Assembly (NCBI GenBank): GCA_030695415.1
Contig: JAUYQZ010000039.1
Span: 1-64,000 of the forward strand
Length of the DNA stretch: 64,000 bases
From: Hylemonella sp.
GTDB taxonomy: Bacteria; Pseudomonadota; Gammaproteobacteria; Burkholderiales; Burkholderiaceae_C
Reading direction: 5' to 3'
The position numbers and the translations under genes were made by a program. The notes under the pieces were generated by a model. That model searched no databases and was not told where the DNA came from. It saw only the letters and a program-made list of their open reading frames with translations. Position 1 is the first letter of the stretch, and each line of letters opens with the position of its first letter. This document shows, piece after piece, positions 7,362 to 7,596 of the stretch.

Positions 7362-7390
7362 AAAAAAACCCCGGCACGAAGCCGGGGTTG
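7362..7390 (-). terminator. Intrinsic terminator
   Basis: AACCCCGGC-TTCGT-GCCGGGGTT followed by T-run on minus strand. Confidence 0.85.
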
Positions 7391-7460
7391 GAAGCCTTTT
7401 TTGCTGTCACACATCAAGGCCCCGCTCAGGGAGGAAAAGCGGGGAGTGGCGAACCACCCG
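7362..7460 (-). ncRNA. Candidate sRNA or 5' leader with anti-Shine-Dalgarno loop
   Basis: Promoter TTGCAA-N17-TAGATT on minus strand (7495-7467); predicted RNA CGGGUGGUUCGCCACUCCCCGCUUUUCCUCCCUGAGCGGGGCCUUGAUGUGUGACAGCAAAAAAGGCUUCCAACCCCGGCUUCGUGCCGGGGUUUUUUU: UUCG hairpin, CCCCGCU/AGCGGGG stem with UUUCCUCCCUG loop, intrinsic terminator. Confidence 0.72.
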
Positions 7461-7596
7461 GATGTAAATCTAACAAAAACATGCACCAATTGCAAGCCAG
7501 GGCCAAAAATTGTGGGAAATGCAGTGTCAAACGACGCAGAAGCGTGCAAAGTTGGCGGGCGGGGTCGATCGGACGGAATCGGGCACAATTTTGCCC

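Follow-up and report, generated by a model that had tools for sequence, protein, structure and literature searches.

The ErsA RNA of Pseudomonas aeruginosa is encoded in the polA-engB intergenic region, depends on sigma-22 and contains three stem-loops, SL1 to SL3 (PMC8575079). Its described action is at the ribosome-binding site together with Hfq, through which it represses algC by pairing with the ribosome-binding site of that gene (PMC6321483). The gene for the sX13 RNA of Xanthomonas lies downstream of polA, and its C-rich loops act on G-rich mRNA sites near start codons; the authors of that work asked whether RNAs of this kind are also to be found at polA in other bacteria (PMC3771888). 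In Burkholderia cenocepacia J2315, the RNA ncS04 is 105 nt long, with a mapped transcription start site, a 3' end obtained by RACE and a band on a Northern blot; it co-purifies with Hfq, and its expression shows no significant change over seven conditions (PMC5688073, PMC4603805). A review lists the RNA Bc7 as Hfq-bound, with hemB as a predicted target and RybB as a homologue, and it treats ErsA and Bc7 in separate sections (PMC6321483). Going by the Rfam name and the position, ncS04 and Bc7 are probably the same RNA.

Here we analyse a stretch of 64,000 nucleotides (the window) from a Hylemonella genome (assembly GCA_030695415.1, contig JAUYQZ010000039.1, positions 1 to 64,000), in which an initial annotation had proposed an sRNA. 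Our preferred reading, which we regard as likely, is that this is an anti-hemB RNA (Rfam family RF02837), independently transcribed, terminated and acting in trans through an anti-Shine-Dalgarno loop with the assistance of Hfq, and that the sigma-E promoter of the family has been replaced in this lineage. The family itself is known. What is new is that its relatives join it with ErsA in a single evolutionary line of loci, together with the lineage-specific swap of promoter. In the literature searched, in which few subscription journals were covered, we found nothing that links anti-hemB to ErsA or sX13, and none of the papers found reports a tested function for RF02837.

Identification of the RNA family

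A cmscan search against Rfam identified RF02837 (anti-hemB, 'Burkholderia RNA 7') at 7360-7445 on the minus strand, with a score of 66.1 bits over the full length of the model (1-81). This exceeds the gathering threshold of 49.5 bits, and it is the sole Rfam match within the window; the RNA is present as a single copy in this genome. The position is also that of the family, hemB being on the plus strand and divergent from the sRNA on the minus strand. On score and position, the feature is a member of the known anti-hemB family.

The initial annotation had mentioned, without confirming membership, a betaproteobacterial toxic small RNA family and cuckoo/CcsR-like RNAs. The first of these fails: RF02278 scores 21.4 bits against a cut-off of 50, and the RNA belongs to a family that the annotation had not named. 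SorX (RF02784) scores 22.9 bits against a cut-off of 46.6, and membership of both families is rejected because both scores are under the cut-off. RF02278, SorX and the cuckoo/CcsR RNAs do share with the window RNA a CU-rich anti-Shine-Dalgarno loop close to an intrinsic terminator, but all three are found at different loci, and for cuckoo/CcsR the resemblance is in the loop alone. It is therefore worth considering whether the RNA could be a growth inhibitor of the RF02278 double-hairpin type. The CCUCC-containing loop, the general look of a hairpin plus terminator and the weak RF02278 score all go in that direction; however, the score is far below the cut-off, RF02837 provides the better explanation, and B. 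cenocepacia has both kinds as separate RNAs (PMC5688073, PMC4603805). We consider this reading to be extremely improbable.

The window RNA and ncS04 have much in common: sequence and structure above the Rfam cut-off, a divergent hemB, a length of about 105 nt, a terminator and a CCUCCC loop. Hfq binding is known from the B. cenocepacia homologue. The window RNA differs in having a 5' hairpin that lies outside the Rfam model, hemJ in place of engB downstream, and a promoter of the TTGCAA/TAGATT type. The RF02837 model starts on the 3' side of this 5' hairpin, which is conserved, and its cut-off excludes many of the polA-engB homologues described below. The Rfam entry could be extended to include both.

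Promoter, hairpins and terminator

The sRNA is about 100 nt long and occupies 7362-7462 on the minus strand, as judged from the RF02837 match and the fold, with the 5' end placed from the promoter. The promoter consists of a -35 hexamer TTGCAA (7490-7495, minus strand), kept as TTGcA or TTGAA within the genus, and a -10 hexamer TAGATT (7467-7472, minus strand) separated from it by a spacer of 17 and lying inside the conserved block TTTTTGTTAGATT. It scores 8/12 in a simple promoter scan with a threshold of 9/12, and was hence not flagged. Nevertheless the -35 TTGcA and the -10 block TTTTTGnTAnATT show almost no variation across the genus, which, together with the sequence itself, bears out the proposal of a well-spaced sigma-70-type promoter on this strand.

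The predicted fold of the whole RNA has an energy of -46.5 kcal/mol (z = -3.7), a stability equalled by none of 200 shuffled sequences, and contains four stems, all on the minus strand. The first is a 5' hairpin, GGGUGG-UUCG-CCACUC (7444-7459), which is absent from the Rfam model and is stable in most relatives. Hairpin 2 (7421-7443) is CCCGCUU-UUCCUCCCU-GAGCGGG, presenting the anti-Shine-Dalgarno loop UUCCUCCCU. Hairpin 3 (7394-7420) is GCCUUGAUGUGUGACAGCAAAAAAGGC, with the stem GCCUU...AAGGC, and is supported by the fold and by relatives. Finally there is an intrinsic terminator, AACCCCGGC-UUCGU-GCCGGGGUU followed by a run of U (7362-7389). The initial annotation gave the coordinates and sequences of promoter and RNA correctly. 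It described three hairpins, and those that it named, including the terminator, are indeed there; it overlooked GCCUU...AAGGC, the third of the four.

Conservation and covariation

RF02837 is widespread among relatives. It is present in 25 of 26 genomes of the genus (all 15 of the near-complete ones), in 51 of 61 genomes of the family (47 above the cut-off), in 299 of 399 genomes of the order (245 above it), and in 124 of 274 genomes of a sample of the class (14 above it). Within the genus, the -35 and -10 blocks and hairpins 2 and 3 are almost invariant, whereas hairpin 1 and the terminator stems vary.

For hairpin 1, compensatory changes are seen in five of the six pairs, with 17 cells compared to 5.6 in shuffles; none of 500 shuffles equals this, and slid controls are far lower. 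Covariation in this hairpin is, as far as the alignment goes, far beyond chance, and as the sequences were chosen for having the hairpin in the same register it demonstrates that pairing is kept rather than that exactly this hairpin exists in every relative. In hairpin 2, CCUCCCUGAGC is found at the expected position in 81 of 89 loci. Stem pairing is kept in these 81, with the fourth pair exchanged from C-G to U-A in 13 of them, while CCUCCCU is unchanged.

The initial annotation had made its proposal depend on conservation in relatives of promoter, loop and stem; the promoter proved to be conserved within the genus, and so did loop and stem in relatives, with hairpin 1 also covarying. Its main claim, of an independent sRNA with an exposed anti-Shine-Dalgarno loop and an intrinsic terminator, kept in relatives, is well supported by these comparisons. 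In terms of sequence evidence, the small RNA at about 7462-7362 is confirmed as a real regulatory RNA.

Gene order and proposed relationship to polA-engB RNAs

The RNA had been described as lying between hemB and a hemJ-like gene, and Pfam agrees: the gene at 7597-8598 on the plus strand, divergent from the sRNA, is hemB (delta-aminolevulinate dehydratase, ALAD; PF00490, 466 bits), and that at 6863-7291 on the minus strand is of the hemJ type (UPF0093; PF03653, 139.5 bits). Only in this family is the latter found downstream of the RNA and co-directional with it.

Gene order was compared at 89 loci with flanks of 1.5 kb. In the window's family the RNA is flanked by a divergent hemB (25/31) and a co-directional hemJ (24/31). 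In other Burkholderiales, hemB is again divergent (29/30), the other flank being a convergent engB (27/30), with cytochrome c4 farther out. Outside the order, in other Gammaproteobacteria, the RNA is downstream of polA and/or before a convergent engB in 22 of 28 loci, with cytochrome c4 farther out in many of them; four of the 28 class-level matches have none of polA, engB and cytochrome c4 inside the flank examined. The arrangements hemB/hemJ, hemB/engB and polA/engB are best read, on this gene order, as one orthologous locus, because each shares one flank with the next.

These comparisons bear directly on an alternative raised by the initial annotation, namely that the RNA is a terminating 5' leader (attenuator) of hemJ, the same promoter serving both and the terminator being read through conditionally into hemJ. 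The hemJ gene is only 69 bp downstream on the same strand, and a simple scan finds no separate promoter for it. However, the RNA and its terminator are kept in the other Burkholderiales that have the convergent engB, outside the order the RNA is found between polA and a convergent engB, and ncS04 has a 3' end defined by RACE. Because the RNA and terminator persist where no co-directional gene follows, and most family members have a convergent engB downstream, the attenuator is refuted as a general explanation, and we regard it as very unlikely.

ErsA, sX13 and Spot 42 are encoded at the locus with the polA/engB arrangement that is seen outside the order. The window RNA is not itself between polA and engB, its flanks being hemB and hemJ; it is tied to that locus through the hemB-engB and polA-engB relatives. 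It resembles ErsA in belonging to the same chain of loci and in carrying CCUCCC in a hairpin loop, the C-rich anti-Shine-Dalgarno loop of the ErsA type being present in its hairpin 2. In ErsA, by contrast, CCUCCC is in the terminator loop, there is no CCCGCU...AGCGGG hairpin, and the promoter is of the sigma-22 (sigma-E-type) class, which is absent from the window's lineage. The locus, the promoter of relatives and the C-rich loop suggest common descent with ErsA, a comparison of features and not an alignment of whole RNAs. The likeness to sX13 is one of description rather than of sequence: it too is an sRNA of the polA locus with several hairpins and C-rich loops matching G-rich motifs near start codons, but Hfq is dispensable for it and it is reported only in Xanthomonadaceae. 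Spot 42 of E. coli is similar in that its gene is downstream of polA. It is not known to have a CCUCCC loop, and its targets and regulation are different.

Promoter type across relatives

The region just upstream of the RNA was searched for a sigma-E-type motif, GAAC[TCA]-N15-19-TCNNA, with the expectation obtained by shuffling or from random windows of the same loci. Outside the family, 25 of 30 Burkholderiales loci have the motif, as do 15 of 28 loci outside the order (40/58 together); by chance, at most 0.34 would be expected per group and less than 1 for all 58. None of the 31 upstream regions from the window's family has it, and the ErsA form of the promoter (GAACTT-N15-19-TCNNA) is likewise absent upstream of the window RNA. 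Conversely, a sigma-70-type score of at least 9/12 is reached in 11 of the 31 loci of the window's family against 0.63 expected, with no such excess elsewhere (0/30 in other Burkholderiales; 2/28 against 0.78 expected outside the order). Among the organisms that have the sigma-E form are Nitrosospira, Dechloromonas, Azoarcus, Thauera, Zoogloea, Thiobacillus, Cupriavidus pauculus and a Chromatiaceae MAG, which were picked by the motif and so illustrate its range, not its frequency.

In a genome family that we infer from OprF to be Pseudomonadaceae, at least 5 of 11 genomes have a polA-engB RNA with the same sigma-E promoter type and a CCUCCC terminator loop. To judge from these features, the RNAs are in agreement with ErsA.

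It therefore appears that in the window's lineage a stress-type promoter has been swapped for an ordinary sigma-70-type one, which is a new point and would be a clear example from nature of a conserved RNA whose regulation has been rewired. More broadly, the data suggest that anti-hemB and ErsA, perhaps together with sX13, belong to a single deep family. We find it reasonably probable that RF02837 represents, in Burkholderiales, an ancient lineage of polA-engB sRNAs to which ErsA and perhaps sX13 also belong, that it was originally a sigma-E envelope-stress silencer with an anti-Shine-Dalgarno loop, and that the window's family (probably Burkholderia too) was rewired to a housekeeping promoter with the loop unchanged. 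For many different beta- and gammaproteobacteria, the present data answer the question put by the authors of the sX13 study in the affirmative, and the gene-order chain and the sigma-E-type promoters together give RF02837 a testable function.

Proposed mechanism and candidate targets

In our preferred reading, the anti-hemB RNA would be independently transcribed, intrinsically terminated and act in trans. With the help of Hfq, its UUCCUCCCU loop would pair with Shine-Dalgarno sequences of the GGGAGGA type in several mRNAs, and covering these sites would block loading of the 30S subunit and prevent initiation of translation. The RNA thus probably blocks translation of several genes, the targets being putative. 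In most relatives it would be made on envelope stress via sigma-E. In the window's lineage there is a housekeeping promoter, and therefore expression is likely to be constitutive rather than stress-induced, which fits the even expression of ncS04 across conditions.

CCUCC, present in the loop, also forms the core of the anti-Shine-Dalgarno sequence of 16S rRNA, and the conserved mRNA partners remain candidates, so that one could also imagine the RNA as a sponge or mimic directed at the ribosome itself or at Hfq instead of at mRNAs. This is highly improbable: a loop with the anti-Shine-Dalgarno core pairs with mRNA and not with 16S rRNA, and the RNAs of the related locus, ErsA and sX13, have their sites of action on mRNAs, close to the start codon.

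The predicted energy of pairing with the loop is -20.5 kcal/mol for GGGAGGAAG compared to -8.9 kcal/mol for the canonical UAAGGAGGU, and a loop with this preference would therefore select a subset of genes. Each genome has 17 to 24 sites (about 20) with GGGAGGA placed 4 to 9 nt before an ATG, approximately 3.7-fold over the reversed pattern; GGGAGGAAAAG sites counted genome-wide show no excess over the reversed pattern, and few are at start codons. When five genomes of the genus were compared, four shared a GGGAGGA-N4-9-ATG site ahead of an ABC-2-like export permease, a name given for its resemblance since the fragment searched in Pfam had no match, and two shared such a site ahead of an outer-membrane-like protein. 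Both are candidate targets, and the permease site may be just a strong ribosome-binding site.

The strongest loop match in the window is the ribosome-binding site GGGAGGAAGAG, with 8 nt complementary to the loop, of an orphan lipoprotein-like ORF at 26452-27122. This ORF (26463) was rejected as a target, since none of the 25 relatives searched has the protein.

As partners of the loop, hemB and hemJ are both unexceptional among the window genes. This is of interest for hemB, since the family name, taken literally, describes a cis-antisense regulator that pairs with a hemB 5' UTR spanning the sRNA gene. The divergent head-to-head position is conserved in Burkholderiales, and hemB is the predicted target of Bc7 in the review cited above (PMC6321483). 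However, hemB starts about 135 bp from the 5' end of the sRNA, and would need a long leader to overlap it; outside Burkholderiales the RNA occurs with no adjacent hemB; and pairing with the hemB start region (-11.3 kcal/mol) is no outlier among 51 window genes, which have a median of -8.5 and several of which do better, for which reason hemB was rejected as a special partner. We consider antisense regulation of hemB unlikely, and the link of the RNA to haem metabolism is one of position only.

Copies and variants in relatives

Several genomes have 2 to 6 matches to RF02837, in tandem or as multiple copies. These are at loci L260 (genome G760, same genus), L006/L009 (G262, G150) and L255 (G171), and in genomes G263, G505 and G522. 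At L260, both copies have their own promoter and terminator. L282 (G755, also of the genus) has a copy with an altered third hairpin, and neither hemB nor hemJ within 1.5 kb. L252/L285 (G684, same genus) is a second, different hairpin RNA at an unrelated locus, with the same loop (GGCUUUUCCUCCCUGAGCC) and a score of 36 bits, under the cut-off; it is possibly a paralogue.

In relatives outside the family (L003-L060), the terminator hairpins mostly have a second C-rich loop, CUCCCC, as read by eye. The number of C-rich loops in these RNAs is thus two or three, and the window copy has UUCGU in its terminator loop.
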